Shown: positions 1,533 through 32,644 of the stretch, piece after piece
Numbering within the stretch: position 1 is the first letter of the stretch
Layout: every line of letters starts with the position of its first letter
Origin: a virus
Direction: 5' to 3' (one strand)
DNA: 62,544 nt
IMG/VR virus record: IMGVR_UViG_3300037502_000756
Span: 1 to 62,544 of that record
The notes under the pieces: generated by a model
Told to the model about the DNA's origin: nothing
Seen by the model: only the letters and a program-made list of their open reading frames with translations
The model's database searches: none
Program-made: the position numbers and the translations under genes

Positions 1533-1561
1533 GTGGCCTCCTGTGGGGAAGGGTTCAGAGT

Positions 1562-3121: not shown

Positions 3122-3124
3122 GGC

Positions 3125-3764: not shown

Positions 3765-3784
3765 GAATGAGGACAAACCCGGGG

Positions 3785-7592: not shown

Positions 7593-7649
7593 CTCCACCT
7601 CCAGAACAAAAGCACCGCCACCCCCACAAGCCACGCCACAACGACGGCA

Positions 7650-9570: not shown

Positions 9571-9965
9571 TGGTTCTTCTCCTTCAGCGCGGCCTCGACG
9601 GCGCGAGCGAATCTGAAATAACGGTCATCTCGCAGGTCTTCAATCTCCTCCTCGCTCAACGACTGCCACTCGCGGCGGGGCGGGTGGGTGTAGAGGGGCA
9701 CCGTGCGATCCGGTTTACGGCCGATGTACTCGCGGGAGTAGAACTCTCGCTGTAAGCCGGATGGGGTGTCGTATTCATAGATATAGCAGTACGGCTCCTG
9801 CTCCTCCTGCGCCAGCGCGGCGCGGAGGGCTATTTCCGCCCGGTCCGCCGAGTCAGATGCTCGCGTGTAGATGGAGTCACCCGGGGCATGCAAAGCGTCA
9901 AGGGCTTTGACGCAGCCCTCCAACGCCTCCAGCGCCTGCTGGGCGGCTTGTCTCAGGTCAGCCAT
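9567..9965 (-). CDS. Hypothetical protein, paralogue of next gene (short form)
   Basis: 132 residues. The N-terminal helix LRQAAQQALEALEG and C-terminal block PPRREWQSLSEEEI...FARAVEAALKEKN are shared almost word for word with the gene at 9958-10560. The central parts differ. The C-terminal block with its HPPRREWQ/LSEEEI segment is widespread in small proteins of betaproteobacterial phages. A tandem duplication with divergence of the middle is the simplest history. No catalytic motif seen. Confidence 0.75.
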   Translation of the reverse strand: MADLRQAAQQALEALEGCVKALDALHAPGDSIYTRASDSADRAEIALRAALAQEEQEPYCYIYEYDTPSGLQREFYSREYIGRKPDRTVPLYTHPPRREWQSLSEEEIEDLRDDRYFRFARAVEAALKEKNQ

Positions 9966-10560
9966 TGTTCTTCTCCTTCAGCGTTTGCTCGATGGCGCGG
10001 GCAAATTCTTGCGGGCCCATGCGTTTGTGATAGGTGTCGTGGATTGACTGGATCTCCTCCTCGCTCAACGACTGCCACTCGCGACGGGGCGGGTGGGCGT
10101 AGAGGGGCTCGACGATGTAGCTCTTGTCGCGCTTGCATGAGACGTAGTAGCCGTCGTCTGACAACGACCACGGCGAGCCGATCATTGGCTTATAGCGCCA
10201 CGCCACCGGCTCCTGCTCCTGCTGCGTCGAATTACGACAGCAGTCAAGCACCTCACAAACGCCGTCCTCGGCGATGTCGCAGGGGGTTTGTGCGGGATCG
10301 GCCCGCTCCTGCTCTGGCGCATACCGTTGCCGACCGACGTAAACAGCAGCAGGTTGCCCGTTGGCACCAAAGGCTTGGCAGTCTGCCGGAGTGCGGCGTA
10401 ACGCTCCGTTGTTGTCCTCAAAAACAACGTGCATTTTCGCCACTGGCTCCTGCTGCGCCAGCGCAGCGCGGAGGGCGGTGATCGTGGCGCTGCGTCCCGC
10501 CGGATTGTCTTGCTCCAACGCCTCCAGCGCCTGCTGGGCGGCTTCGCGTAGCGTGGTCAT
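9958..10560 (-). CDS. Hypothetical protein, paralogue of previous gene (long form)
   Basis: 200 residues from MTTLREAAQQALEALE. The same N-terminal helix and C-terminal PPRREWQSLSEEEI block as the adjacent 132-residue protein enclose a longer middle part. The middle contains a cysteine-rich segment (DIAEDGVCEVLDCC) and QEPVAWRYKP, a segment common in such phage proteins. The modular look suggests swapping of central segments between conserved ends. Confidence 0.75.
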   Translation of the reverse strand: MTTLREAAQQALEALEQDNPAGRSATITALRAALAQQEPVAKMHVVFEDNNGALRRTPADCQAFGANGQPAAVYVGRQRYAPEQERADPAQTPCDIAEDGVCEVLDCCRNSTQQEQEPVAWRYKPMIGSPWSLSDDGYYVSCKRDKSYIVEPLYAHPPRREWQSLSEEEIQSIHDTYHKRMGPQEFARAIEQTLKEKNNG

Positions 10561-10799
10561 ACCCCACCTCCCAACAGCGTCAAAGCGCCGACGGCCACCG
10601 TGACAGCGACCGCAACGGCGAGCATCAAGAGTGCAACCCAGTCGAACGCGTTCAGGTCGTCGTCCTGGCCGATGTCGGTGGCGGCTTCCGCCGCCTCGGG
10701 ATAGCGCCCCTGTTGGTCCGTGCCCAGCGCACGGTAACCGGACCGTGCCCACACAGTGGGCTCGGTGCCATCAGGAAACTCGGTGTCGTGGTATCTCAT
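10557..10799 (-). CDS. 80-residue C-tail-anchored membrane protein
   Basis: The first 50 residues are soluble and acidic. The last 28 (from about residue 52) form one hydrophobic segment, WVALLMLAVAVAVTVAVGAL, ending LLGGGV. This is a single C-terminal membrane anchor with the soluble domain probably cytoplasmic. ATGA overlaps on both sides. Function unknown. Confidence 0.68.
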   Translation of the reverse strand: MRYHDTEFPDGTEPTVWARSGYRALGTDQQGRYPEAAEAATDIGQDDDLNAFDWVALLMLAVAVAVTVAVGALTLLGGGV

Positions 10800-10948
10800 G
10801 GCGCTTTCCTTTCCACATGTTGTGCCAGTAGCCAGCGGCTCCCAAGCCGCCGAATGGCGCGTACCCAGGCAAGCTGGTTGCGCCTGTCCAGGCGTCGGTT
10901 ACCCGTGGCCCAGAGGGCTCGGGCCTTGCGGAGCATTTTGGTGTTCAC
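10796..10948 (-). CDS. Very basic 50-residue protein (GTG start)
   Basis: Reading from GTG at 10948, which overlaps the upstream TGA as GTGA, gives about 50 residues rich in Arg and Trp (RKARALWATGNRRLDRRN...). An upstream ATG would need an unlikely extension across the previous gene. Possibly a small nucleic-acid-binding protein. Confidence 0.58.
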   Translation of the reverse strand: MNTKMLRKARALWATGNRRLDRRNQLAWVRAIRRLGSRWLLAQHVERKAP

Positions 10949-11145
10949 GCTGCCTCCGGCATCGTTACCCTGAGATCCGCCGCCATCTCCAACCAGCCTT
11001 GCTTTGTGCTCGGTGCTGAAAGACGTAGGACATGCGTGAACCATTCCGGGTACTTACCTGTGTATGGAAACACAGCCAAAACGATAGCGGGTTTGTTGTA
11101 CCAATTCGGATACAGTGATCCGACTTCGGGGATTTTGTATTTCAT
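10945..11145 (-). CDS. Hypothetical 66-residue protein
   Basis: Starts MKYKIPEVGSLYPNWYN, with GGAGAG 7 bases upstream. A beta-rich middle (PAIVLAVFPYTGKYPEWFTHVLRL) is typical of small phage beta-barrel-like proteins. It is the first gene downstream of the tandem terminators, so this leftward sub-block may begin with its own promoter in 11146-11170 or depend on read-through. Confidence 0.65.
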   Translation of the reverse strand: MKYKIPEVGSLYPNWYNKPAIVLAVFPYTGKYPEWFTHVLRLSAPSTKQGWLEMAADLRVTMPEAA

Positions 11146-11172
11146 TTGTGCTCTCCAAAAGCGTTTAGCCAA

Positions 11173-11200
11173 CAAAAACGCCCTGCCCTGGCGGGTGTTG
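11173..11200 (-). terminator. Leftward terminator, distal copy
   Basis: Minus-strand hairpin AACACCC / GGGCGTT with one A-C mismatch, followed by TTTTT-G. It repeats the layout of the better terminator at 11213-11242, so the gene at 11264-11515 ends in two tandem terminators. Confidence 0.6.
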
Positions 11201-11212
11201 AGCGTTCGGCCA

Positions 11213-11242
11213 TGAAAAACGCCCTGCGTTTGCAGAGCGTTG
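11213..11242 (-). terminator. Leftward rho-independent terminator
   Basis: On the minus strand AACGCTCTGC, loop AAAC, GCAGGGCGTT then TTTTT: a strong stem with one G-U pair and a U-tract, 22 bases after the stop of the gene at 11264-11515. Confidence 0.85.
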
Positions 11243-11263
11243 AGTGATGAGGTCAGGGGTCTG

Positions 11264-11515
11264 TCAGGCGGTGCGCCACACGCGCAGGCCATCGGACATG
11301 ACGGCGGTGCGGGTCTCCAGGCCGACGAACTTCTTGCGTGCGTTCAGCACCTTGCGCCGCCACGAGTCCACCACCTTCTTGCCCTCATCACCCGACGGGT
11401 CGAAGGGGATCAGGAACGAGTCGCCGACTTCCATGTCAGCGAACGGGAACGAGGTCCCACGGCGACCCGGACGGGTACCCTTGGGGATGGAAACTCCAGC
11501 TTCGATTTGGAACAT
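11264..11515 (-). CDS. DUF7303-like small phage protein
   Basis: 83 residues from MFQIEAGVSIPKG. It has the family-like order: an N-terminal IPKGTRPGRRGTSFPFADMEVGDSFLIP, then KKVVDSWRRKVLNARKKF, then a strand. This resembles the widespread small phage proteins reading YPFxxMxVGDSF that I associate with DUF7303. Their role is not known; a nucleic-acid or transcription accessory role is a guess. It is a transcription unit of its own: a promoter at 11613-11641 and two terminators below it. Confidence 0.75.
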   Translation of the reverse strand: MFQIEAGVSIPKGTRPGRRGTSFPFADMEVGDSFLIPFDPSGDEGKKVVDSWRRKVLNARKKFVGLETRTAVMSDGLRVWRTA

Positions 11516-11612
11516 GTTGTCCTCTGATGCACCCACTGAGTAGCAGCGGGCGAAGGGTTAGCGCACCGGGGTCGGTGCTTGGTTGACGGCTACTCCGTTG
11601 ATTGGTGGTCAG

Positions 11613-11641
11613 ACTTTATCAGCCCGACTCGTCGGTGTCAA
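11613..11641 (-). promoter_or_regulatory. Sigma70-like promoter, leftward
   Basis: Minus strand: TTGACA (11641-11636), 17-base spacer, TAAAGT (11618-11613). The -35 is perfect and the -10 matches at 4 of 6. It overlaps the last codons of the upstream gene and would start RNA near 11606, about 90 bases before the DUF7303-like gene. Confidence 0.68.
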
Positions 11642-11906
11642 CAACGCCATCGGTGTTTATTGGCTCGATCCAGTACGAGTTTTCCCCTACTCGCACGCCG
11701 ATGTTGTACACCTGTTCAGGGTGCCCAGCGTCCAGCAGAGCCATCGCCTCGATCATCCATCGGGGTAGCGCCCCACGGCGATAGTAGCCCATCTGAAGTT
11801 TGTCGGGTGACTTAGGGTAGGTCGTGACAAGGATGAGCCCGGGGTTGTCAAGCGGAGTGGTGTTGATGTGGTAGGACGCTTTAAGGTTGCGCTCGGGGTC
11901 AAGCAT
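11619..11906 (-). CDS. Hypothetical 95-residue protein
   Basis: From MLDPERNLKASYHINTTP at 11906, overlapping the previous gene by 8 bases. Beta-strand-rich with VGENSYWIEPIN and an acidic end. No recognised family. A promoter for the next gene is embedded in its 3' end. Confidence 0.65.
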   Translation of the reverse strand: MLDPERNLKASYHINTTPLDNPGLILVTTYPKSPDKLQMGYYRRGALPRWMIEAMALLDAGHPEQVYNIGVRVGENSYWIEPINTDGVVDTDESG

Positions 11907-12198
11907 TGGACGCCTTCTTTGCGGCTTCCGCCCGGTCGTGCTCCTCCTTGGCATCGGCGTTGGCACGCATCGTTGCGAACTGCACCGGGCCCAGGGTGCG
12001 GATGGTGGGCATGTACTCGGGCTCCAGCTTTATCGCCATCGGTCGATGGTTCTGCCAGTTGTTTTGGTACCACGTCTGAACTTTGTACACGTCGTGGCCT
12101 GCGAAGAGATCAAACACCGCCATCGCGGCGTTTTTCGGGACAATGAACTCGTTGCCTCCGAGGGATAAGATCACCTTGTCGAACTGTGCTTTGCTCAT
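11899..12198 (-). CDS. Hypothetical 99-residue protein
   Basis: From MSKAQFDKVILSLGGNEFIV at 12198, with AGGAGCT upstream. A compact alpha/beta part (GGNEFIVPKNAAMAVFDLFAGHDVYK) is followed by a charged helical tail, EEHDRAEAAKKAS. The middle resembles small phage proteins with a LGG...VP...A...F pattern. No activity can be assigned. Confidence 0.68.
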   Translation of the reverse strand: MSKAQFDKVILSLGGNEFIVPKNAAMAVFDLFAGHDVYKVQTWYQNNWQNHRPMAIKLEPEYMPTIRTLGPVQFATMRANADAKEEHDRAEAAKKASNA

Positions 12199-12250
12199 GA
12201 TAGCTCCTGTGGTTGGGGTTGGGGGGGGTGACACCCGGTCCGCGCCGGGG

Positions 12251-12541
12251 TCATTTCGCCGCGTCATAGAACATCTCCGCGATACCGAACGGCGGGTCAT
12301 AGCTGTCGGGGAACTCCATTCTAAGGCTTTCGGTCCATAGCACCCATGCAGACCGAGATTCGACGTGACTCAGCCTGAACATAGGCCCCACTGTGTGGTA
12401 CCCTTCCGGGGTGATGCGGTTCTCGTACAGCGCGTACTGCGCTGGGAACCCTACGGTGATATGCCATTGCCGCCCGGGGCTCAGGGCTTTGGGCAGGTCC
12501 ATGCTCGGGATAGCTTGGCGGCGGTCACGAGGCTGCGTCAT
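12251..12541 (-). CDS. Hypothetical protein, tandem paralogue A
   Basis: 96 residues from MTQPRDRRQAIP. It shares with the next gene the ordered landmarks PGRQWHI, YALYEN, MFRLSH, and the C-terminal DPPFGIAEMFYDAAK. The pair arose by tandem duplication. The shared aromatic pattern suggests a small beta-sandwich. Function unknown. Confidence 0.7.
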   Translation of the reverse strand: MTQPRDRRQAIPSMDLPKALSPGRQWHITVGFPAQYALYENRITPEGYHTVGPMFRLSHVESRSAWVLWTESLRMEFPDSYDPPFGIAEMFYDAAK

Positions 12542-12806
12542 ATAACACCTCTGCTTTCTCAAAGGGTGGTTCATCGGACTCAGAAAGTCTGACTTGCCAC
12601 AGCACACCGTCGTTCAAGAACGCTGACACAAACCAGCCGTCGAGAAAGCCAGAGTGTGTCAATGTCGCTTTCCATTGAAACGTAGGGGTGCCATCCGATG
12701 TAACACAAGGCTCATATAAAGCGTACTTCCGTGGACGGAAGTCGTTGACGAGATGCCACTCCCGCCCGGGGCGGAGCCCGGGGACGGGCCCATCAGGCTG
12801 GGACAT
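12525..12806 (-). CDS. Hypothetical protein, tandem paralogue B
   Basis: 93 residues from MSQPDGPVPGLRPGREW. Landmarks PGREWHL, YALYEP, ATLTH and DEPPFEKAEVLYDAAS line up with paralogue A. Its start lies inside the end of the VWA gene and its end overlaps paralogue A by 17 bases, so all three are one translational unit. A role connected with the VWA/MoxR system is possible from position only. Confidence 0.7.
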   Translation of the reverse strand: MSQPDGPVPGLRPGREWHLVNDFRPRKYALYEPCVTSDGTPTFQWKATLTHSGFLDGWFVSAFLNDGVLWQVRLSESDEPPFEKAEVLYDAAS

Positions 12807-14004
12807 ACAACGTCTCCCCCACCGGGGCGCGGAGCCCCTTGGTGCTGATGCACCACAGCGTCGGGTGCTTGAGGCCAGCAGGCCACGGCGTGAAGCCATC
12901 GGTGAAGACGATCACAGCGTCGGGGTTCAGCCCGCGCCGGTCGATGTAGTCGAACAGGCTGCGCACGTCCGTGCCCCCGCCACCCTTGGGCTTCGTCGCC
13001 TTGGCGATGTCCTGCACCCGCTCGCCCTCGTACACCTCGTGCGCTGCGACAGACGCATCCCAGTAGATCACGTCAACCATCTGCGGGCAGACAGTCTCGC
13101 AGGCACTGGCCACCTCACTGAGGGCTCGACGCAGGGCGTCGTCCCCGATGGACCCGCTGGTGTCGATGCCGATGACGATGCGGTTCACTGCTTCGGTGTA
13201 ACGAGACGGTAGGTAGAGATCCTGCCCGAGCCAGCGGCGTGCGGGCCGCGCCCACGTCGAGAGGTCACCGCCCTTGGCGGTGTTGGTCAGCCACTCACGC
13301 AGCACGTCCTGCCAAGGCACCACAGGCTCAAGGAGTGACGCAACGTCCCGGGACATGCCAGCACCCGTCTTGCCTGCGATCAGCGCCCCTTGGCGCAGCG
13401 CAGTATCAACAGCCTTGGCTACCTCCTCGGCCTCGGCCTCGGTCAGAGGTGCAGGCCCCTCACCCTCGTCACCGTCGCCGTCTCCGACACCCGCAGCGGG
13501 TTGATGCTGGTCGAACTGCTGACCCTTGGGCCCGTTGCCCTGACCCCCGCCGCCTTGCGGCTTGGACTGAGCCTGTTGTTTGAGTCGCTTGTACACCTCA
13601 CCCGTGTCGAGCCCAGCGTACTGCGGATCGCAGTAAGCGTTCTCCCAGATGGTGAGGAACTGCTCGCTTGGGTCCATCGCCTTGAGCATGTTGTTGATCA
13701 CCATGTCTTTGGCAATGTTGGACAGTTGCGAGTCCTCCTTGTCGAGCTTGGCCCAGGTCGTCATGTGCATCAACATGACGTGGAAGTATTCGTGCAAGAT
13801 GACGAAGCGCAACAGCCGGTCGTCGCACTCATCAATAAACTTCCGACCATAAAAGACATCACGGCCATTGGTTGCCGCAGTGGGCATGTCATCGACAACC
13901 TGCCATGAGCCGATCATCAAGATCGGTGAGATGGCGGTGAAGCGCTCGTCGCGCATGATCTTGGCACGGGCTTTGGTGATGCGCTCTTCTGCTGTTAGGT
14001 TCAT
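12793..14004 (-). CDS. VWA-like / putative metallopeptidase (DUF2201-type)
   Basis: 403 residues. The N-terminal half has a zincin-like HEYFH (H71, E72, H75), typical of the DUF2201 N-terminal predicted metallopeptidase. After a Gln/Gly/Pro-rich acidic linker (about 150-190) comes a VWA-like domain with a complete MIDAS: DTSGS at 281-285, T345 in GGGGTD, D369 in FTDG. This is the COG3864 arrangement. VWA proteins paired with MoxR ATPases act as metal-dependent adaptors in remodelling or cofactor insertion, and the MoxR gene lies immediately upstream. The phage target is unknown. AAGGAG precedes the ATG. Confidence 0.92.
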   Translation of the reverse strand: MNLTAEERITKARAKIMRDERFTAISPILMIGSWQVVDDMPTAATNGRDVFYGRKFIDECDDRLLRFVILHEYFHVMLMHMTTWAKLDKEDSQLSNIAKDMVINNMLKAMDPSEQFLTIWENAYCDPQYAGLDTGEVYKRLKQQAQSKPQGGGGQGNGPKGQQFDQHQPAAGVGDGDGDEGEGPAPLTEAEAEEVAKAVDTALRQGALIAGKTGAGMSRDVASLLEPVVPWQDVLREWLTNTAKGGDLSTWARPARRWLGQDLYLPSRYTEAVNRIVIGIDTSGSIGDDALRRALSEVASACETVCPQMVDVIYWDASVAAHEVYEGERVQDIAKATKPKGGGGTDVRSLFDYIDRRGLNPDAVIVFTDGFTPWPAGLKHPTLWCISTKGLRAPVGETLYVPA

Positions 14005-14020
14005 GTGGTTCTCCTTCGGA

Positions 14021-14041
14021 GCCCCGGGACTGGCCCGGGGC
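14021..14041 (-). promoter_or_regulatory. Leader hairpin before the VWA gene
   Basis: GCCCCGGG / CCCGGGGC with a 5-base loop, preceded on the minus strand by ACCACAACCCC and followed by the AAGGAG of the VWA gene. It is one of the repeated stop-hairpin-RBS spacers of the leftward block; no U-tract. Confidence 0.55.
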
Positions 14042-14058
14042 GGGGTTGTGGTGGGTTG

Positions 14059-15105
14059 TCAGCCCATGATCCAGTTGTTGGCCGTGCACCACTTGGTGAA
14101 TGAGTCGTTCAGGGCTGCGAACTTCGAGCGCTGCGGGATGCGCAGGAACTGGTTGACGAACACGGCTTGAAGCTCCATCGGCAGGCGCTTCATGTAGACC
14201 ATCACCGGGTCGAGCGTGTCCTGCGTCGTGCGGGTGATCGCACGGTGCACCAGCATCATGCACATCGTCGGTGTGTCAGGCACTGGGGCCTGCAGCGGGC
14301 TCGTCACGATGGCGTTCCACGACGGCAGCTTGTTGCCCAGTTGTACGAACACATGCAGATCGGCAGCGGAGCGAGCGCCGATCAGGCCAGCGAGCAGGCC
14401 CCGCATGGTGTCGTCGTCGAGGTGCTCGGCGTCGTTGAGCACGCGACCGGCAGCGGTCATGCTGCGCGGAGAGCAGAAGGCTTTGCGGCTCGGGTCTTTG
14501 CGATGCCAGATGTAGGGGTTCTGATCGGGGTTCGCCACGTCGTCGTCCTCGGCCAGCACCTGGGGCGTCTCCGTCACCCAAGCCAGCACGGCAGGGTTGC
14601 CGTTGTTCGCCAGCGAGTAGTTGATGTACTCCTCGACGTTGGGCTTGCGCATCCTGACCACGGACATGCGGTTGCGGACATGCAAGGGCAGCGTGTCACC
14701 GACGCCCTCGGAACTCAGGTTGGTGGTTGCGAACACGACCGAGCCGGAGGGGAGCGGGCGGGTGCCGACCCGACGATCCAGCACGACGGGCAGGAGTGCG
14801 TTCTGTACTGACCTCGGAGCCTTGCCGAACTCATCCAGGCAGATGACGACAGGCACGTTGTCATGCACACCGAACACTTCGTTGGGATAGAAGGTGCTCG
14901 TCCCCGTGGTGTGGTTCACCGACGGGATCTGGATGTCGCCCACATCGATCTGAGTGCAGTCGATGTAGACCTTGCGGTGCGTCGGCATGTTGAGCATGCC
15001 GAGGATAGAGGACTTGCCCGAGCCCGAAGGCCCCTCGATGAGCACGGTGGTGTGTTGGCCGACAGCGTTGATAGCTGCTGCGCATTGGTTGATGCTGAGT
15101 TTCAT
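14059..15105 (-). CDS. MoxR/CobS-type AAA+ ATPase
   Basis: 348 residues. Walker A GPSGSGKS at 25-32, Walker B VVICLDEFGKA with D91 and E92, sensor 1 FATTN at 126-129, and an arginine-bearing NRMSVVRM region. The layout (insert before Walker B, HTTGTSTFYPNEVFG) fits the MoxR/CobS branch, whose hexamers remodel protein complexes through a VWA partner. That partner is the next gene. The start at 15105 has AGGAG 5 bases upstream. A palindromic operator (15125-15138) lies just before it, so the pair may be controlled with the phage regulon. Confidence 0.92.
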   Translation of the reverse strand: MKLSINQCAAAINAVGQHTTVLIEGPSGSGKSSILGMLNMPTHRKVYIDCTQIDVGDIQIPSVNHTTGTSTFYPNEVFGVHDNVPVVICLDEFGKAPRSVQNALLPVVLDRRVGTRPLPSGSVVFATTNLSSEGVGDTLPLHVRNRMSVVRMRKPNVEEYINYSLANNGNPAVLAWVTETPQVLAEDDDVANPDQNPYIWHRKDPSRKAFCSPRSMTAAGRVLNDAEHLDDDTMRGLLAGLIGARSAADLHVFVQLGNKLPSWNAIVTSPLQAPVPDTPTMCMMLVHRAITRTTQDTLDPVMVYMKRLPMELQAVFVNQFLRIPQRSKFAALNDSFTKWCTANNWIMG

Positions 15106-15124
15106 GATCACTCCTGTTAAACAC

Positions 15125-15138
15125 GTTTATCAATAAAG
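15125..15138. promoter_or_regulatory. Palindromic operator candidate (degenerate)
   Basis: GTTTATCAATAAAG: a degenerate copy of GTTTAC-NN-GTAAAC, between the DUF3150-like stop and the MoxR start and directly after a GGGGC/GCCCC hairpin. Confidence 0.5.
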
Positions 15139-15156
15139 GGGCCGGAGCCCCGGGGG

Positions 15157-16092
15157 TCACAGCGCGAACTTGTCGAGGATGTCGTCCATCGCACGCTTGG
15201 TGGCGTGCTGTAGTTCGGGGGACTCACGCAGCGAGTCCATGTCCACGCGGGTCAGCGCCCGCTCCAGATCACGCCGCGCTTCCTCAAGGCGCGGGTCGTT
15301 GGTGACGTTGAGATCGCTCAACATCTTGCACAACTCAAGGCCCTGCTCCAACATCGAGTCGTACAGCTTGGGACGGCGGGGCTTCTTGATCTCGACCGAC
15401 ACGACCGTGCCGTTGTCGTCGGTCTTCTTGATCTCCTCCACCCTGTCCGGGTCATAGCTGAGCACGGCCTCCATCCGCTCTCGCACCCACTCGACCTGGG
15501 TCTTCACACGCTGCCACGTGTCCTGCACCGCAGCCTGCACCCGCTCGGTCGTGGCACGCTCGTACTGCTCAGCGAGGTGACGCTGTGCCTCGTGGCCGAT
15601 GTCCACCCGGAAGTCACCCGACGAAGGCAGTGGGCTGAGGGACAGCCCGAAGCGGAACTTCGCACGCACCTCGTCAGCCAGCGGGTACTCGCTGCGGTCG
15701 AACAGCGCACCCATCTCGAAGGCTTGCTTGCTGATGGCCGTGCCGTACACCGACAGGAAGGCTTGCACCAGGGCGTTGAACTTGGACTCGTACTCCGCCG
15801 CTTTGGTCGTCACGTCGAGGTACTGGCGGGTGGTGATGAGCCGTGCACCGTTGTCGTCCCACGGCAGGGTGCGGGAGTTGAACCAGATGCGGGCTTCGCC
15901 CCGCAAGGACTTGATCGCCTCCAGTTCGGGGCACTCCGAGAACAGGTTCTTGGATACCGATGCTGCCTTCTTGCTCTTGGCACCCTTGGAGCCCAGGACT
16001 TCGTCCCGGGTGGTCTTGTCTTGGATCCGCGCTTCCCACACAGATATGTTGAGGGAGCCAAGCATGGCGGCGGTGGTGATGTCGATCTTCAT
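15157..16092 (-). CDS. DUF3150-like protein
   Basis: 311 residues, largely alpha-helical. It starts MKIDITTAAMLGSLNISVWEARIQDK, followed by a basic stretch (GSKGAKSKKAASVSKNLF), FNSRTLPWDDNGARLI, and long charged helices to the end. I recognise the LNISVWxARxxD opening and the LPWDDxGxRLI segment from DUF3150 proteins, which also accompany CobS/MoxR and VWA genes in SXT-type integrating elements. That suggests a three-component complex whose substrate is not known. It is separated from MoxR by a hairpin and an operator-like site. Confidence 0.78.
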   Translation of the reverse strand: MKIDITTAAMLGSLNISVWEARIQDKTTRDEVLGSKGAKSKKAASVSKNLFSECPELEAIKSLRGEARIWFNSRTLPWDDNGARLITTRQYLDVTTKAAEYESKFNALVQAFLSVYGTAISKQAFEMGALFDRSEYPLADEVRAKFRFGLSLSPLPSSGDFRVDIGHEAQRHLAEQYERATTERVQAAVQDTWQRVKTQVEWVRERMEAVLSYDPDRVEEIKKTDDNGTVVSVEIKKPRRPKLYDSMLEQGLELCKMLSDLNVTNDPRLEEARRDLERALTRVDMDSLRESPELQHATKRAMDDILDKFAL

Positions 16093-16107
16093 AGTTTCCT
16101 CTTTCGG

Positions 16108-16122
16108 GTTGTGGGGGCGGTG
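16108..16122 (-). promoter_or_regulatory. Leader hairpin before the DUF3150-like gene
   Basis: GGGGGC-ACC-GCCCCC on the minus strand, starting a few bases after the upstream stop codon and followed by ACAACCCG and the ribosome site. One of the repeated hairpin spacers. Confidence 0.55.
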
Positions 16123-16134
16123 CCCCCGGGGTTG

Positions 16135-16767
16135 TCAAACGCGCTTACCGTCTTCGTCAAACTCGTACTCGTTGATGGTGATGGCCTCGTCAACCTGCTC
16201 GTCGGCTAACTGGTACTCATACTCCTGCTCTAGTTGTTTGTAGATCCACCGGGCGAAGTCACGCAACGCCTCGATGATGCCCTCCTCCGCATCCGTCGGC
16301 ACGGGGCAGTATTCATCTTTGGGTTTGTAGACTTGTATCTCCATAGACATCTCGTGGCAGTAGCGACCGGACTGCCTGATATCTGCACCCAGTTGATAGA
16401 ACGCCTGTCGTTGGGCGGCGGCCAGGGCTTTGGCGATGCGGTGGAGTTCTTCGTCCTTCGGGGCGTAGGCTCTGACAGCAGCGACGCTGTCCTTGCGGTG
16501 CTTGTATATACCCTTGAACGATGCCCCGTCGCCCTGGCTCCAGAAGCCCGACCAGTACACGGACGGGCCCCACGATGACGAGCCGTCGGCACGGCGCTTG
16601 CGCTCGCACCGTATATTCAGTCCCATCAGCTCGGCCACGTCGCATGCGTCGTCGATGACGCACTCTGCGTCGAACTCGTAGCGGCTACGCCACCACTCGC
16701 GGGCCTTGGCCTTGGCCTTGTCGCTCAGTTCGTTGAACTGATAAACGGTTGTTGTCATGGTTCTCAT
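16135..16767 (-). CDS. Conserved phage protein (YQFxELSDxAKxKAR family)
   Basis: 210 residues beginning MRTMTTTVYQFNELSDKAKAKAREWW. The centre reads VYWSGFWSQGDGASF, a hallmark of a family found in many tailed phages and prophages and sometimes loosely annotated as an antitoxin of a toxin-antitoxin stability system. That label is not established. No catalytic motif. AAGGAGAG stands 6 bases before the chosen ATG; a second ATG three codons later is possible. Acidic C-terminus. Confidence 0.8.
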   Translation of the reverse strand: MRTMTTTVYQFNELSDKAKAKAREWWRSRYEFDAECVIDDACDVAELMGLNIRCERKRRADGSSSWGPSVYWSGFWSQGDGASFKGIYKHRKDSVAAVRAYAPKDEELHRIAKALAAAQRQAFYQLGADIRQSGRYCHEMSMEIQVYKPKDEYCPVPTDAEEGIIEALRDFARWIYKQLEQEYEYQLADEQVDEAITINEYEFDEDGKRV

Positions 16768-16786
16768 TGCTTCTCTCCTTTCAGTT

Positions 16787-16861
16787 TCAGATGATGCCCA
16801 GCATGAGCAGGGCTGCGGCTATGGCGCAGACTGCGAGCAGCAGCTTGTCGTCGGTGGTCAT
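16787..16861 (-). CDS. 24-residue transmembrane micropeptide
   Basis: MTTDDKLLLAVCAIAAALLM followed by LGII: four polar residues, a lysine and then one hydrophobic span of about 17. Its ATG overlaps the TGA of the DUF2591 gene (ATGA), a strong sign of coupled translation. Similar tiny single-span proteins act as membrane modulators in other phages; here the role is unknown. Confidence 0.6.
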   Translation of the reverse strand: MTTDDKLLLAVCAIAAALLMLGII

Positions 16862-17208
16862 GCAAGTTCCTCAGGGATGTCGATGGTGTCGCCCAGTTTG
16901 CTGGCTACGTAGCAGCGCATGGCTGCGATCAGGGGCGTGGGGCCGACACCCCAGCGCCCGCCTGCGCCCTTTGCGGACAGGCTCGGGCGGGCCTGCCAAA
17001 TAGAGTCCCGCATCGCGGGGATTTCGTGTCTGATGCTGACCTCTTCCCGCTCGATGATCGGGCCGCCGTGCTGCCACAGCACAGACGGTTGAAAGATCAA
17101 ACCGTCATCGAACAGCGGAATGCTCATGTCGTACTCGGGGCCGTACCATACCTTCGCCACCGCCCAGTCAAGGGCAGGGCCGGTGAGGTCTGCGGTTCTG
17201 ATCTTCAT
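16858..17208 (-). CDS. DUF2591 / NinX-like protein
   Basis: 116 residues. MKIRTADLTGPALDWAVAKV, WQHGGPIIERE and GPTPLIAAMRCYVASKLGD are signature blocks of DUF2591, the family of phage lambda-group NinX. It is common in the accessory part of tailed phages; its biochemical function has not been established to my knowledge. The length is normal. GGAGAG precedes the ATG. Confidence 0.93.
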   Translation of the reverse strand: MKIRTADLTGPALDWAVAKVWYGPEYDMSIPLFDDGLIFQPSVLWQHGGPIIEREEVSIRHEIPAMRDSIWQARPSLSAKGAGGRWGVGPTPLIAAMRCYVASKLGDTIDIPEELA

Positions 17209-17220
17209 TGCTTCTCTCCT

Positions 17221-17544
17221 TCAGCGGACGAACCGCGTGTTGACGTAGTTCTTGAGGACGATCTGCTTGGCCTCGTCTCGTGACCATGCGCGGACGTACA
17301 GGCGTGTGCCCATCGCCGCCGGGGCCGTCGCAGTGTCGGGGTTGAACGCACACCAGAGGTACGGTACGTCTGCGCCGCCGCCCCAGTACGTCCCGTCGGG
17401 TGCGTAGCCACCATCGACGAAGCGCACGCGCTGTAGGCGCAGCACGATGTGCCCGTCGTACTGGTCACTGGCACCGAGCGGTGCCCCGCCACGCTGTAAC
17501 GGGCGTGGGTTCTGCCTGAGTATGCGGTTGATGTCGAGCTTCAT
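17221..17544 (-). CDS. Conserved hypothetical phage protein
   Basis: 107 residues from MKLDINRILRQNPRPLQR. It contains LRLQRVRFVDGGYAPDGTYWGGG and a C-terminal LYVRAWSRDEAKQIV helix. These blocks recur in phages of proteobacteria, always unannotated. The fold is probably alpha/beta. Two hairpins (GGCACC/GGTGCC and GGGCC/GGCCC) lie in the spacer upstream. Confidence 0.72.
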   Translation of the reverse strand: MKLDINRILRQNPRPLQRGGAPLGASDQYDGHIVLRLQRVRFVDGGYAPDGTYWGGGADVPYLWCAFNPDTATAPAAMGTRLYVRAWSRDEAKQIVLKNYVNTRFVR

Positions 17545-17606
17545 GGTCTGTCGCCTTTCTGGCACCGTGGTGCCGGGGTTGTGGGCCTGCGGCCCGGGGA
17601 GACCGC

Positions 17607-17840
17607 TCAGCGGTCGAAGGTGATGAAACACACGGTGCACTCACCGTGTGGGCGGAGTTCGATCATGTCACCATAATCGACGGTGACGGTGCGCTTGCCC
17701 GTCCAACCTACGGCGTGCTTGGCACGTCGCACGATGCTGTACCTCGACAGTGCGTCGGGGGCTTCGAGCGTGGCCCTGCGCACCCAGGAGTAGTTCGGCT
17801 CGTGTCCGAACGTGTCGGTGACTTCGATGTTGATCTTCAT
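17607..17840 (-). CDS. Hypothetical 77-residue beta-rich protein
   Basis: From MKINIEVTDTFGHEPNYSWVRR, with AGGAGC upstream. Alternating strands, two cysteines near the end (ECTVCF). The opening resembles small phage proteins of the MKIxxxVxDTxGxEANYSWV type, unannotated in general. A hairpin whose stem includes its stop codon (GACCGC/GCGGTC) follows it. Confidence 0.68.
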   Translation of the reverse strand: MKINIEVTDTFGHEPNYSWVRRATLEAPDALSRYSIVRRAKHAVGWTGKRTVTVDYGDMIELRPHGECTVCFITFDR

Positions 17841-17872
17841 GTCAGCTCCTTCCGCCCCCTCTCGGGGGCATC

Positions 17873-17886
17873 GTTTATCGGTAAAT
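17873..17886. promoter_or_regulatory. Palindromic operator candidate (degenerate)
   Basis: GTTTATCGGTAAAT, matching GTTTAC-NN-GTAAAC with two changes. It overlaps the stop of the zinc-ribbon gene and lies next to a GCCCCC/GGGGGC hairpin in the leader of the gene at 17607-17840. Confidence 0.5.
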
Positions 17887-18105
17887 CCCACCCTTGTTGT
17901 TGATCCCCCTCGCCGCTTCGCGTGCGAAGTCCGACGTGAAGAACATAGCGCCTTGTTTGTGGGGCGTGAGCACCGTCCAGCCCTTGCGCTCGGCCTTCGC
18001 CTCCTCTTCCCCGCACCACAGGCAGAGCCTGTAGCCGAGCGACACTCGGCGAGGGTCGATGTCGTCCCCGCACCGGGGGCATTCACTGATCTTCATCATC
18101 TTCAT
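17875..18105 (-). CDS. Small zinc-ribbon protein
   Basis: About 76 residues. CPRCGDDIDPRR and LCLWCGEEEAKAERKG form a four-cysteine zinc ribbon of the TraR/DksA-like look, followed by a basic helical tail. Several ATGs are available in an ATGATGAAG repeat; 18105 is chosen because GGAGGA lies 5 bases before it, and 18096 is also possible. It could bind nucleic acid or RNA polymerase. It overlaps the previous gene by 23 bases. Confidence 0.68.
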   Translation of the reverse strand: MKMMKISECPRCGDDIDPRRVSLGYRLCLWCGEEEAKAERKGWTVLTPHKQGAMFFTSDFAREAARGINNKGGIYR

Positions 18106-18256
18106 CATCTTCCTCCATGAAGAACTCATTGGCACGGGCCATGTCGGCCACGTCGTCCTCGCTCATGTACTTCAGGCAAGCCATGATGACCGTGTCGCGG
18201 TCGAGCAAGCCTTCCTCTACCATTTCGAGGACTTTGTCTGTTGTTTGGCGGGTCAT
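18083..18256 (-). CDS. Acidic-tailed 57-residue protein
   Basis: From MTRQTTDKVLEMVEEGLL; the C-terminus is EEDDEDDEDQ, encoded by a short GAAGATGAT-type DNA repeat that also supplies the start region of the next gene. Such acidic tails can mimic DNA or bind basic partners. VDRDTVIMACLKYMSEDDVADMAR-like helices precede it. I recognise no family with a known role. Confidence 0.66.
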   Translation of the reverse strand: MTRQTTDKVLEMVEEGLLDRDTVIMACLKYMSEDDVADMARANEFFMEEDDEDDEDQ

Positions 18257-18257
18257 G

Positions 18258-18551
18258 TCAGTCCTTCGGACCCGTCGGGCGGGTCGGGTTGTAGACAAAA
18301 TGGGTCTGGCCTTCCTTGGCGGCGGTTGACCGGCTCACCCTGAACGGTGCGCCCAGGGCCTTGAGCACCTCGTTCATATGGCTTGCCGTCGTCACGGTGT
18401 AGTACCCGTGCCAATAAAAAACTACCGCACCATCGGTCTTCACCGCTATGGGGTGCCCGTGCAGCCAGTAGGTCTGCCCATCCGTCGTTGCGTTGTGGCA
18501 GGTGCCGTTGTTCCCGGCGACGAAGGCACGGGCGAGTTCGGGTTTGTTCAT
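18258..18551 (-). CDS. Conserved hypothetical phage protein
   Basis: 97 residues. NGTCHNATTDGQTYWLHGHPIA, then FYWHGYYTVTTASHMNEVLKALG. The CHNAxTDGxxYxLHGHxIA pattern with a later W-x-G-x-Y-x-x-T-T-A-S-H recurs in phage accessory genes without known function. His and Cys residues could bind metal. One base separates its stop from the next gene's start. Confidence 0.72.
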   Translation of the reverse strand: MNKPELARAFVAGNNGTCHNATTDGQTYWLHGHPIAVKTDGAVVFYWHGYYTVTTASHMNEVLKALGAPFRVSRSTAAKEGQTHFVYNPTRPTGPKD

Positions 18552-18787
18552 ACCTTCATTTCCAGTTCACCGTCGTTGTTACGCACGAAATGCGCAGCGG
18601 CCATCTCGTAGGCCAGCGGGTTGTGCGCCCAGTGGAGTTCGATCTCATCCGGGCAGTCTTCGTTACCCTTGATGATGGCCGAGCGGCACTCGGTCAGTGC
18701 CTTGCCAGGGCACGGGGGCATCGCACGCAGATGCGTTCTGAAAAGCCAAGCCATGTCACATGGCTTGTTGATAAATGTGTCAGCCAT
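18548..18787 (-). CDS. Hypothetical 79-residue protein
   Basis: Starts MADTFINKPCDMAWLFRTH. Three cysteines, and a C-terminal AAAHFVRNNDGELEMKV. Overlaps the next gene by 4 bases. The AGGAG of its ribosome site is 8 bases from a perfect operator palindrome (18800-18813), so a bound repressor or an RNA hairpin there would directly affect expression. Confidence 0.66.
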   Translation of the reverse strand: MADTFINKPCDMAWLFRTHLRAMPPCPGKALTECRSAIIKGNEDCPDEIELHWAHNPLAYEMAAAHFVRNNDGELEMKV

Positions 18788-18799
18788 TGTCGCTCCTAT

Positions 18800-18813
18800 G
18801 TTTACCAGTAAAC
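18800..18813. promoter_or_regulatory. Palindromic operator (perfect)
   Basis: GTTTACCAGTAAAC: perfect inverted repeat GTTTAC/GTAAAC with a 2-base centre, between a GCCCCC/GGGGGC hairpin and the ribosome site of the gene at 18548-18787. Confidence 0.75.
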
Positions 18814-18835
18814 AAGCCCCCTCGGGGGCACGGGG

Positions 18836-19165
18836 TCAGGTGAAATACCGTCCGACGATGGCGGTGTCCTCGGCACCCCAGCGGAACACCACGCCGCTGA
18901 AGTACGTCTCGCTCACGATCATGTGCCAGCTCGCCAGGGGCGAAGTCTCGGCCACGACCATCGCCCACCCCATCGGGTGGCGGGCTTCGCGGGTGACGAA
19001 TTGTGCGTCGAGCACGTCGTACCACACACCCTTGTACTGCACGAACCGGGCGGTGTAGTCGCCGTCCTTGGCGACGTAGTCGAAGTCGGCCCGCACCTTC
19101 TCCGGGAGGTCGAGCAGGCACGCCAGCGGGCGTGGGTGGTTGTTGGTAATGATGTTCATGTTCAT
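18836..19165 (-). CDS. Hypothetical 109-residue protein
   Basis: From MNMNIITNNHPRPLACLLDLPE at 19165; a start two codons later is also possible. It contains DYTARFVQYKGVWYDVLDAQ and TYFSGVVFRW. The FVxYKGxWYDxxDxQ block with a later YFSGVxxR recurs in unannotated phage proteins of similar length. Possibly a small beta-barrel fold. Function unknown. Confidence 0.7.
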   Translation of the reverse strand: MNMNIITNNHPRPLACLLDLPEKVRADFDYVAKDGDYTARFVQYKGVWYDVLDAQFVTREARHPMGWAMVVAETSPLASWHMIVSETYFSGVVFRWGAEDTAIVGRYFT

Positions 19166-19194
19166 CTCACTCTCTGGTGATACCCCCGTAGGGG

Positions 19195-19217
19195 CGGGTT
19201 GTGGGCACGTCAGTGCC
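19195..19217 (-). promoter_or_regulatory. Leader hairpin spacer
   Basis: Minus strand CCGGGCAC-TGAC-GTGCCC followed by ACAACCC, immediately after the stop of the gene at 19222. Same spacer design as at 16108 and 17580. Confidence 0.5.
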
Positions 19218-19221
19218 CGGT

Positions 19222-19485
19222 TCACTCCCACCAGTCGCCGCCAGCGACGTCGGGCCTGCACTGCACCCCGATCATGCGAGCCAGTTCGCCCCGCGCTTGG
19301 GCGCGGATCTTCTCGGGTTCATCCCACACCGAGGGACTGAACCTCCATGCGCCAAGCCTGCCCGATTGGCCAAGCTCGACCGATACGTTCCCGTATCGGT
19401 CTTCGACCACCTTCATGGTGATCCCCGGGGGCACGGGGCTGAGAAGCCCCTGCACGTACCCGGCACGCTGTCCCTTCGCTACCAT
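19222..19485 (-). CDS. Hypothetical 87-residue protein
   Basis: From MVAKGQRAGYVQGLLSPVPP. Contains RYGNVSVELGQSGRLGAWRFSPSVWDEPEKIR, a beta hairpin followed by a helix with ELARMIGVQC. No recognised family. It follows the DUF1874 gene by one base and so shares its mRNA. Confidence 0.66.
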   Translation of the reverse strand: MVAKGQRAGYVQGLLSPVPPGITMKVVEDRYGNVSVELGQSGRLGAWRFSPSVWDEPEKIRAQARGELARMIGVQCRPDVAGGDWWE

Positions 19486-19486
19486 C

Positions 19487-19774
19487 TCACACCTCCACAC
19501 GAACCCAATCGAACCCGAACCCCTCGGGCAGGGTCACGCAACCCTCGGGCAGGCGCCCACCGCGCAACTGAGCGACGTACAGCACGTCTCCGGGCTGCAA
19601 GGTCACGCTGATGCGTGCCATGGGCACGCCGAGCACGGCTGCAGTGTCGGCATGGCCGACGCAGCTCACCAAGCCCTCGCGCGAGGGCTCACCGCACGCC
19701 GACAGGCGCACGAAGGCCAGCAGGTGCCTCGGCACCATGCCCAGGGAAAACGCGTTTCCAATATAGGTAGTCAC
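19487..19774 (-). CDS. DUF1874 / AcrIII-1-like protein, ring-nuclease candidate
   Basis: 95 residues from GTG at 19774, with GGAGAG 4 bases upstream. Blocks in order: YIGNAFSLGM, SCVGHADTAAVLGV, RISVTLQPGDVLYVAQL, GGRLPEG, VRVEV. These match the DUF1874 (STIV B116-like) family. Viral members known as AcrIII-1 destroy cyclic tetra-adenylate and so silence type III CRISPR effectors. Their catalytic histidine corresponds to H41 here in VGH, and the Arg/Glu pair with i,i+3 spacing corresponds to R74 and E77 in RLPEG. It is the first gene behind the strongest promoter, as expected for an early anti-defence protein. Cellular DUF1874 proteins exist, so the substrate needs testing. Confidence 0.85.
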   Translation of the reverse strand: MTTYIGNAFSLGMVPRHLLAFVRLSACGEPSREGLVSCVGHADTAAVLGVPMARISVTLQPGDVLYVAQLRGGRLPEGCVTLPEGFGFDWVRVEV

Positions 19775-19791
19775 AAAACTCTCCGGTTTTC

Positions 19792-19894
19792 GCAGCACAT
19801 GCTGCCTAGAGCGCTCGTTGCACCGGCTCCGCAGGGCGTGCACCGTGCGGATGATTTGCGCGAAGCGCTCTAGGCAGGGGGCAGAACCCCCTGC
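19792..19894 (-). ncRNA. Structured leader RNA segment before DUF1874 gene
   Basis: Reading leftward: hairpin GCAGGGGG / CCCCCTGC (19874-19894, loop of 5), then a perfect 13-bp long-range stem whose arms are 19864-19876 and 19803-19815 (TGCCTAGAGCGCT), then GCAGCA/TGCTGC (19792-19805). The arms overlap by 3 bases, so neighbouring helices compete. The segment ends just before the GGAGAG of the DUF1874 gene. It could be an attenuator, a cis-regulatory RNA or a processed small RNA. I recognise no known RNA family. Confidence 0.5.
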
Positions 19895-20144
19895 GATGTT
19901 GCGACTACGGTCTCGCCCCACGCTTTCGCGTTGTGCTGATTAGGCACGCGGGATCCCCGCTCATGTCGTCGCTATTTGTTGTCGGTTGACGTTTAGGTAT
20001 CGTCAACAACCTGCACAGAGTCTTTCCTCTGCGGCCTACGCGCCAATCGGATTCTTACCGTCGGTCACGTCGAGGAACTGAACTTCACCCCGTTTGTTCT
20101 GCCGTAGGCAGGTGTGTCGGGCTAGATCAGTATCTTGCCAGCGC

Positions 20145-20158
20145 GTTTATTGGTAAAC
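20145..20158. promoter_or_regulatory. Palindromic operator, long form
   Basis: GTTTATTGGTAAAC, one mismatch in the arms, extended by GCGC on both sides to a 22-base palindrome (20141-20162). It lies inside the long leader of the DUF1874 transcript. Confidence 0.7.
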
Positions 20159-20316
20159 GCGCAAAACCCCGGCCAATAGTGCGTTACACGCAGCGCTACC
20201 TGCGTGTTCGGCACCGACGCCGGTACTGACAAAAGCTGTCGATCAGTGGACATCGCATGTGACCGTATATCACACACGAAGCCAGACAGGCGGCGTAAGC
20301 CGCTAAAGAGCATTGC

Positions 20317-20330
20317 GTTTACTGGTAAAC
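20317..20330. promoter_or_regulatory. Palindromic operator (perfect)
   Basis: GTTTACTGGTAAAC, perfect arms, extended by TGC/GCA to 20 bases (20314-20333). It sits about 45 bases downstream of the predicted transcription start near 20373. Confidence 0.75.
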
Positions 20331-20379
20331 GCACCGGGTTAGCCCGGTGTCAGCAGGTTGATCTCCCACCGACAAATAC

Positions 20380-20408
20380 ATTGTAACACAATGTGTCCTT
20401 TATGTCAA
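20380..20408 (-). promoter_or_regulatory. Strong sigma70 promoter, leftward
   Basis: Minus strand TTGACA (20408-20403), 17-base spacer, TACAAT (20385-20380): a perfect -35 and 5 of 6 at -10. A 17-base inverted repeat, ACATTGT-AAC-ACAATGT (20378-20394), covers the -10, ideal for a repressor. It should drive the DUF1874 gene and the accessory genes to its left. Confidence 0.85.
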
Positions 20409-20433
20409 GTCAATGGCGTTGTCAAGGGGTCTG

Positions 20434-21411
20434 TTAGGCACGGGTCTTCGGCCTCGACCTAGCACCCTTCGGTCTTCCACCCTTTGCACGCTGCCTCAAC
20501 GGCTCCACATTGTGAGTGTCACACCACGCCAACCAGCGCTTCCCGAAGTCGTCAGACAATGTCGCCTGATCTGCAAGTCCTTCGATCAAACGCGAAGCCA
20601 AAGTAGACATAAGCATGATGTTCCCCGCCTCGAAGGGCTTGGTCGTGTCCAACCTCCCGATCCTCGCTACGGCACCCTTGGCACCCTCTACACCACCCGC
20701 CACGTCGAACCTGTCGTAACTCAACGGCAGACCCAACACTATGCACGCTTCGGGGTACAAGCGTTGCCCTCGGTATGAGATCAGTGCATCGACGGGCTCG
20801 AACTTCCCATACGCCTTCACTGTACCTGGGCGGGAATACGTGTCGGTAAGATATGCACTGGCACGGGCTTGACTCACTGCCCACCGCAGGTGCTTCCAAC
20901 GTTCGTCCTCCTTGTACTCCTGCGAGACCTTCGCCTTGACCGGGGCTGGCGGCTCACACCCCCTGCGCACCATGCTGACACTCACGTCGAACAGCTTGGC
21001 CACCGCCTCCACGATGTTGCGCATGCTCTCGGCACCGTACTTTGCACGGAGCTTTTCCACCATCGCCTCCATGGCGCGAGCACGGACCTTGACCATGCTC
21101 TTCTTTGAGAACGACCGTTCTTCGACAGTCATCCTGTCGGTGTACATATCAGCCTCGCTGGTCCTCTGCGCCTCTTCAAACCTGACATCCCTTGGCGATG
21201 CTTCGGGCTCGATGTGCTGCGCAAGTGCGAGCGCTTTCATGTTCTCTTCATTTGCGGCGAAACGGTAGTTCAAAAAGTACCACCCGCTGTACTTTGGCAC
21301 GGGCTTGTGCCAGACCGCGGTACTGTTGTTTTCGTTGGGACGGAAGACGGGCCTGCCCGCGCTGTCGAGGTAGGTGGTCGTGAAGATCTTGTGAAGGAAG
21401 GCGTACTCCAT
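20434..21411 (-). CDS. HTH protein with HNH-like remnant and basic tail (regulator candidate)
   Basis: 325 residues from MEYAFLHKIFTTTYLD. An HTH-like stretch, EAVAKLFDVSVSMVRRG (about 133-150), lies mid-protein. The later segment from LPLSYDRFD through PFEAGNIMLMSTLASRLIEG recalls the C-terminal half of HNH endonucleases (usually SxDRxD...GN...S..AN) but lacks the catalytic histidine. The tail GGRPKGARSRPKTRA is AT-hook-like. It is a DNA-binding protein candidate, probably a catalytically dead endonuclease turned regulator. It lies between the densest operator sites and has its own promoter and leader hairpin. No named family is recognised, so function is inference. Confidence 0.65.
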   Translation of the reverse strand: MEYAFLHKIFTTTYLDSAGRPVFRPNENNSTAVWHKPVPKYSGWYFLNYRFAANEENMKALALAQHIEPEASPRDVRFEEAQRTSEADMYTDRMTVEERSFSKKSMVKVRARAMEAMVEKLRAKYGAESMRNIVEAVAKLFDVSVSMVRRGCEPPAPVKAKVSQEYKEDERWKHLRWAVSQARASAYLTDTYSRPGTVKAYGKFEPVDALISYRGQRLYPEACIVLGLPLSYDRFDVAGGVEGAKGAVARIGRLDTTKPFEAGNIMLMSTLASRLIEGLADQATLSDDFGKRWLAWCDTHNVEPLRQRAKGGRPKGARSRPKTRA

Positions 21412-21452
21412 GAGGGGCTCCGGGGGTTGGCACCGCGCAGGCGGCAGACGCA

Positions 21453-21469
21453 CCCCGACGAAGTCGGGG
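21453..21469 (-). promoter_or_regulatory. Leader hairpin of the 325-residue gene
   Basis: CCCCGAC-NNN-GTCGGGG, a perfect 7-bp stem just after the predicted transcription start (about 21472). The same core stem recurs as the terminator at 22226-22245. Without a U-tract it may be an attenuator or mRNA-stabilising hairpin. Confidence 0.55.
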
Positions 21470-21478
21470 GCAGGTCGT

Positions 21479-21484
21479 ATTATA
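21479..21484 (-). promoter_or_regulatory. -10 element, leftward promoter
   Basis: Perfect TATAAT on the minus strand. Seventeen bases upstream is CCAACA, a poor -35, so this promoter may need an activator. A degenerate operator (GTTTAGCCAGTAAG, from 21535) is located about 50 bases upstream. Confidence 0.55.
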
Positions 21485-21938
21485 GCGAAATTCTTGCGGC
21501 GTGTTGGTAATGTGGGCCTGCTTCCTATAAACGCGTTTAGCCAGTAAGGAAACGTTCTAGATAACAGGGGTGGATGTTCCTGGATGTTCCAGTTTTTTGG
21601 GATGCTGCAAGTCGTTGTCAGGGCTCAGGATCGGCGTTTTTGACGGTACGGGGTTGTAATTGGGGAAATTAATATGCGGTTTGGAGGGTCCGTGAATCAT
21701 CTGTAATTTGAAATCAAAAATAATTGGTGGGACTTTTGCGATGACGAAATAAAAACACAATAAAAATTCTAAAAACATAGGGTTACTACTACTCTAGGAA
21801 TAATGTTAGTTTTCTCTATTATAAGGAACATTGGAACACGGAGCCCCCGCCCCTGCCAAATCAACGACTTACGCGGTGCCAAAAAAACTAAATAATCGGA
21901 ACACGCCGGAACTTTGGAACACGGGCTCGCCCACTGCC

Positions 21939-21952
21939 GTTTACCAGTAAAC
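21939..21952. promoter_or_regulatory. Palindromic operator (perfect)
   Basis: GTTTACCAGTAAAC, flanked by CC...GC. Paired with an identical site exactly 80 bases to the right; a CAGCGC/GCGCTG hairpin lies between them. Confidence 0.75.
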
Positions 21953-22018
21953 GCCGCTCGCGTGCTGCCAGGGAACGGGTGTCAGCGCAGAGCGCTGCGT
22001 CCTCGATGGGTCGGCTGC

Positions 22019-22032
22019 GTTTACCAGTAAAC
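22019..22032. promoter_or_regulatory. Palindromic operator (perfect)
   Basis: GTTTACCAGTAAAC extended by GC/GC to 18 bases (22017-22034); identical core to the site at 21939. Confidence 0.75.
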
Positions 22033-22075
22033 GCGGTTCGCTACGTGCAATCCGTCCGCGCAGTGTGTGCGTGGG

Positions 22076-22185: not shown

Positions 22186-22216
22186 AAAAAAACCCGCAGG
22201 GCGTGAACCCTGCGGG
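22186..22216 (-). terminator. Leftward terminator, second of pair
   Basis: Minus strand CCCGCAGGG-loop-CCCTGCGGG then TTTTTTTG: a 9-bp stem with a U-tract. Backs up the terminator just before it. Confidence 0.88.
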
Positions 22217-22217
22217 C

Positions 22218-22245
22218 ACAAAAAAGCCCCGACTTTCGTCGGGGC
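22218..22245 (-). terminator. Leftward terminator, first of pair
   Basis: Minus strand GCCCCGAC-GAAA-GTCGGGGC then TTTTTTG, directly after the stop of the gene at 22251. Tetraloop GAAA, 8-bp stem. It ends the short 22.25-23.07 kb operon. Confidence 0.92.
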
Positions 22246-22250
22246 TGGTG

Positions 22251-32592: not shown

Positions 32593-32644
32593 ACCAGAAC
32601 AAACCCCGCACGCCTCTCAACGATGCGCACCAGCGGGGTTCCTC

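Follow-up and report, generated by a model that had tools for sequence, protein, structure and literature searches.

A conserved structured RNA leader with a boxA-like element at the head of a leftward phage operon

The leader and the genes around it

We analyzed a viral DNA record of 62,544 nt (hereafter the window; IMG/VR record IMGVR_UViG_3300037502_000756), in which a gene block of ~20 kb lies leftward of a long untranslated leader. The identified genes to the left of this leader, all on the minus strand, encode an SNF2-type helicase, PolA, a PD-(D/E)XK nuclease, an AAA protein, and an exonuclease. The features of the leader and its first gene are as follows (window positions, in the order of transcription).

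20408-20380, minus strand: sigma-70 type promoter TTGACA-17-TACAAT, 11 of 12 consensus matches; a TTGACATAA..TATAAT promoter is common to related leaders
20349-20373, minus strand: predicted 5′-end hairpin with GGGAGAUCA in its loop
20315-20332, minus strand: palindrome GCGUUUACCAGUAAACGC just 5′ of boxA; a sister clade also has a palindrome with a UACCNGUA core before boxA
20301-20311, minus strand: boxA-like GCTCTTTAGCG, two mismatches to GYTCTTTAANA; relatives have zero or one mismatch at the same place
20228-20303, minus strand: block of ~75 nt not seen in relatives, starting within boxA (delimited by eye)
20141-20162, minus strand: hairpin with a conserved UUACC..UAA and a covarying stem
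20010-20077, minus strand: core RNA of 68 nt (model R1), two adjoining hairpins, one with a UAAGARN loop and one with a GAAAGA loop
19985-20007, minus strand: hairpin GUUGACG/CGUCAAC, which only some relatives have; its covariation is weak
19789-19894, minus strand: whole 3′ domain of 106 nt (model R2)
19874-19894, minus strand: 3′ domain helix 1, GCAGGGGG/CCCCCUGC
19802-19877, minus strand: 3′ domain helix 2, a 14-bp long-range stem
19792-19805, minus strand: 3′ domain helix 3, GCAGCAUGUGCUGC, which has GCAG in common with helix 2
19784-19779, minus strand: Shine-Dalgarno sequence GGAGAG ahead of the GTG at 19774
19487-19774, minus strand: DUF1874 gene (95 aa, GTG start), the swappable first gene of the operon

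The original prediction placed a promoter ahead of the leader and no gene inside it, and the comparison agrees on both points. A scan of 18500-21500 finds no promoter but this near-consensus one, where shuffling predicts 0.7, and transcription is predicted to start at about 20373 on the minus strand, which leaves ~598 nt untranslated before the GTG. Within this stretch the DUF1874 frame continues upstream without a stop as far as 19921, and 20122-20334 contains a frame of 70 aa. We rejected the leader as a coding region, since both open stretches are altered by indels and by covariation and the frames are broken in relatives; there is no conserved gene here. Behind the leader, promoter-like sites in 1-19800 are at chance level (five found, 4.9 expected), and the minus strand of the ~20-kb block has few predicted intrinsic terminators. 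Judged from the comparison of relatives, which shows it at the level of sequence, the region is a transcribed untranslated leader of a leftward early/replication operon, with its RNA structure under selection.

Three further features of the window were noted. P339, a conserved gene upstream of the leader (20434-21453, minus strand), has an HTH-like stretch by eye and no Pfam or PHROG match; it is possibly a regulator. The gene at 22251 has next to it, at 22193-22246, a pair of strong hairpins that adjoin one another, carry T/A runs, and resemble a bidirectional terminator pair. On the plus strand, 32604-32639 holds an abiF RNA (Rfam RF03085; 44.6 bits against a cutoff of 37) that stands alone: it is immediately preceded by the major capsid gene and followed by a terminator-like stem, and the next plus-strand gene encodes a GIY-YIG domain, not AbiF. 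This RNA could be a phage-carried mimic of the RNA antitoxin, directed against host AbiF.

Loci of relatives were gathered by TerL and DUF1874 searches and the leader was then traced by blastn, which finds it as mosaic pieces in the TerL-related set. We extracted 20 leaders, the window's included. Their common order is promoter, a 5′ end that usually carries GGGARAUC, often a palindrome, boxA, hairpins, and the 3′ domain, which adjoins the first gene in nearly all leaders that are long enough. The distance to the start codon varies from 431 to 671 nt, and the middle hairpin modules are exchanged between relatives.

The leader had been described by its place before the DUF1874 gene. It is not a device of that gene, since the first gene is swapped while the leader stays, and DUF1874 also occurs without the leader. 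Relative L062 has 84% identity with the window over the aligned leader, and its first gene encodes an unrelated 67-aa protein; other relatives have first genes of MNIITNN, MNDN, and MTLNT types, among further ones. Conversely, DUF1874 reaches 96-97% identity in contigs with no R1 or R2 match (for example, L006 and L007). The gene (window 19487-19774, L006-L041) is nearly unchanged among phages whose TerL proteins are only ~47% identical, which indicates that it moves as a cassette. DUF1874 weakly resembles STIV B116 and SIRV1 gp29 (PDB 6SCF, the AcrIII-1 ring nuclease).

Conserved RNA structure of the leader

A succession of hairpins had been predicted, and these belong to a real, selected RNA structure. 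The leader folds far below its shuffles (z = -6.65 with 20 shuffles and -8.8 with 25), whereas control segments taken from this operon (fifteen, each of 580 nt) have z values between -0.45 and -2.97, and the 16 relatives' leaders that we scored have z values of -3.4 to -8.6. In relatives the stems are clearly conserved, with compensatory changes.

The core has the most regular pairing. Its two hairpins are separated by one nucleotide and comprise 22 pairs, and across 13 distinct sequences all 281 of 281 pair cells are standard (100%); sliding the partners by 1-3 columns reduces pairing to 20%-47%. Compensatory change occurs at seven pairs (1.9 in shuffles; 0 of 500 shuffles reach seven); since the relatives share descent, such counts of changed pairs, here and below, do not represent independent events. 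The loops and bulges are almost invariant (36 of 68 columns). About 45 of the 281 pair cells are G-U (manual count from the pair table); these would be A-C on the opposite strand, which shows that the leftward RNA, and not the DNA, is selected.

The 3′ domain, aligned in 16 sequences, is 98% paired and has 38 doubly changed cells (11.7 in shuffles), mostly in the long stem; a second measure, of further pair types, shows no excess over shuffles. The long-range stem had been described as perfect over 13 bp: the stem is real, and its length is 14 bp (19864-19877 with 19802-19815). It reads CUGCCUAGAGCGCU in the window and CUUAAAGG or CUUGAUGCGC in relatives. Neighboring helices do share bases, as had been noticed, since two hairpins are closed by bases of the long stem: GCAGGGGG/CCCCCUGC by CUGC of its 5′ arm and GCAGCAUGUGCUGC by GCAG of its 3′ arm. 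The domain accordingly has two mutually exclusive pairings, ~4 kcal/mol apart (-70.2 versus -65.9). In L076, L080, L083, and L090, the 3′ domain has an extra hairpin, GGUGGUUAGGAAAGACACCACC, that repeats the core motif GGAAAGAC.

A covariance-model search with homologous leaders, the check proposed with the original prediction, places each element at the leader position: R1 and R2 each match once per locus, with a few further weak matches (E near 0.1-1). Over twelve whole records, R2 finds one copy in 10, the window included, and is absent from two, both picked for carrying DUF1874. R1 does not find the full core in relatives L052/L055, L080, L083, and L089, which retain boxA and the 3′ domain.

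The prediction also named two operator palindromes. Both are exact (20143-20160 and 20315-20332). The one at 20143 is also an RNA-type hairpin with a covarying stem: the hairpin 20162-20141 is 97% paired, with 18 doubly changed cells (6.3 in shuffles) and UUACC..UAA kept. One of the two supposed operators is therefore an RNA hairpin, and we rejected the view that the palindromes serve as DNA operators alone. Two further copies (21937-21954 and 22017-22034) may be DNA sites; the pattern has 12 matches versus 1.4 expected. With these, the palindrome GCGTTTACCRRTAAACGC is present four times in the surroundings of P339, once with a mismatch. In short intergenic gaps of other relatives the palindromes are different ones (GTTAAAC..GTTTAAC and GTTAACCGCAGTTAAC), resembling dispersed operators or boxB-like hairpins. 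At the extreme 5′ end of the leader, GGGARAUC recurs in most relatives, and RNAalifold gives no consensus structure for the set of 5′ hairpins.

Searches outside the group returned no homolog. Against Rfam 15, the leader and its relatives have no match at the gathering score, and permissive scans to E 5 yield chance microRNA models only. The leader has no DNA match in named phages by blastn; R1 and R2 are absent from the ~25 kb examined in HTVC023P and DSL-LC04, which are among the nearest TerL records; and a search of 84,980 genomes of bacteria and archaea with exact patterns of the core found none.

The boxA element and a sister clade

BoxA was not part of the original prediction. The consensus that we used, GYTCTTTAANA, is a published gammaproteobacterial one (PMC5725501). 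It is matched exactly in 13 of the 20 leaders and with one mismatch in six, so that all 19 nearest relatives are within one mismatch; only the window has two. The window copy, the most degenerate and with an altered 3′ flank, owes its mismatches to the ~75-nt block unseen in other leaders, which begins there. The element lies 23-85 nt past the predicted start. In 80 TerL-related loci (759 kb, both strands), 16 of 16 distinct exact matches are in leaders or their sister-clade equivalents.

The sister clade (L095, L097, L102, L113, L115, L116, and L121; TerL about 69%) has the order promoter, GGGAAAUC, palindrome TTTCCTACC[A/C]GTAGGAAA, GTTCTTTAAAA, and several hundred untranslated bases. Its leaders do not match the window leader by blastn or by R1 or R2, and their folding is weaker (z = -1.2 to -4.3). 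The same layout with unmatched sequences and RNA models indicates that this architecture predates the present core.

Possible roles of the leader

Across the sequences compared, the leader RNA is conserved, covarying, strand-specific, present in single copy, and independent of the first gene, with boxA in nearly all relatives. The reading we favor, at roughly even odds (probability about 0.5), is that a boxA-headed leader promotes processive transcription of the ~20-kb leftward operon. We infer that RNA polymerase would begin at about 20373 and transcribe the 5′ hairpin and then boxA, on which host NusB and S10 (NusE) with other Nus factors would load, as on rRNA and some CRISPR-array transcripts. 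The polymerase so modified would resist Rho over the untranslated leader and the ~20-kb block, which is without another clear promoter. Since few intrinsic terminators are predicted in the operon, a need for antitermination would rest on Rho. The core and 3′ domain may aid the complex as putRNA does, or they may protect or process the 5′ end of the mRNA, two roles that are indistinguishable here.

A promoter-proximal boxA, a structured untranslated leader of 430-670 nt, and a long operon behind it fit such an operon-wide elongation leader. Against it stand the degenerate boxA of the window, the scarcity of predicted intrinsic terminators, the repressive action that a boxA can have, and the swapped middle modules, which fit a train of hairpins as well as they fit one machine.

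Known systems offer partial parallels. In rrn operons, NusB/S10 and further Nus factors are recruited by boxA and enable polymerase to cross long untranslated RNA. The rrn leader (boxB-boxA-boxC; NusB/S10/SuhB) likewise has a strong promoter, boxA GCUCUUUAACAAUU within ~25-85 nt, and long untranslated structured RNA; unlike it, the present leader belongs to a phage early operon, continues into an unknown fold and then mRNA, and has a degenerate boxA in the window. In Legionella, boxA ahead of a long noncoding CRISPR array raised the precursor transcript ~10-fold (PMC7862264). That arrangement, boxA before a long untranslated transcript, is shared; here, however, what remains untranslated is a leader of conserved structure, and protein genes follow it. 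At suhB, boxA is repressive (PMC5725501), so we infer the sign of the leader's effect. As at lambda nut (boxA-boxB with the N protein), a boxA lies close to where a leftward early transcript begins; in the leaders inspected, however, no 15-nt purine-loop boxB follows boxA, and among the early proteins scanned (not every early gene) none matches an N-like family in PHROGs. GOLLD and ROOL are also large structured phage RNAs; in contrast to them, this RNA has no Rfam match and is part of an mRNA leader.

Put RNA acts through the β′ zinc-binding domain of RNA polymerase. HK022 putRNA acts on polymerase alone, and putL and putR are RNAs of ~70 nt with two adjacent stem-loops, located downstream of early promoters (PMC9378689). 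The core (20077-20010) has this size and layout, its loops and bulges are almost invariant, and each locus has a single copy, where the early operon begins. The 68-nt core might therefore be a protein-free antiterminator of the put kind, binding RNA polymerase directly so that terminators are ignored, with boxA as an auxiliary. We consider this doubtful. Several relatives with boxA and the 3′ domain have no full core, and R1 run on HK022 (20-40 kb, filters off) scores 10.8 bits at best, at a site near 39.8 kb that is remote from the early promoters. Since R1 thus finds no put in HK022, we rejected homology and regard the resemblance as one of form; the phage leader, moreover, adds boxA and a 3′ domain.

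A switch acting on the first gene (riboswitch, attenuator, or protein-bound translational control) would use the GCAG/CUGC alternatives to open or close the ribosome site. The small energy gap between the two exclusive pairings, the conservation of the shared bases, and the position of the 3′ domain against the Shine-Dalgarno sequence would suit it. We find it improbable, as the Shine-Dalgarno sequence lies outside the alternative stems in both states, the first genes are unrelated between relatives, and no Rfam match appears even at E 5, chance microRNA models aside. The RNA sensor that had been suggested finds no support in a translational output, since Shine-Dalgarno exposure is not conserved across relatives (0.05-0.74). 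Nor does the suggested attenuator: no terminator was found in the leader, whose sole terminator-like site on the minus strand is the palindrome before boxA, without a real U-run.

The hairpins could instead stabilize or process the mRNA and take no part in elongation; they would then block decay from the 5′ end or be substrates of RNase III. Strong terminal stems beside the Shine-Dalgarno sequence and the free exchange of middle modules fit this reading, but it leaves the conserved loops (UAAGARN and GAAAGA) and boxA unexplained, and we rate it as very improbable. Least probable of all is an independent noncoding RNA released by processing to act on a host target, as the original prediction had also proposed: the RNA is large, ornate, and single copy with no visible protein role, but no terminator or conserved 3′ end separates it from the mRNA, and the Shine-Dalgarno sequence follows directly.

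Phages that override termination by RNA alone or by host Nus factors are known mainly among lambdoid phages. A conserved leader RNA of uncultured phages that carries a host-type boxA and a core fold absent from Rfam would extend this to an environmental phage group. A bolder proposal, which we advance tentatively and think unlikely as it stands, is that these leaders form a new family of large, boxA-headed phage RNA machines in uncultured phages, in which a conserved two-hairpin core unrelated to put acts directly on host RNA polymerase and drives the whole early operon. This would be a second class of natural antiterminator RNA. With their pairing known, the 68-nt core and the 106-nt 3′ domain make a portable test object for polymerase processivity on long phage operons.
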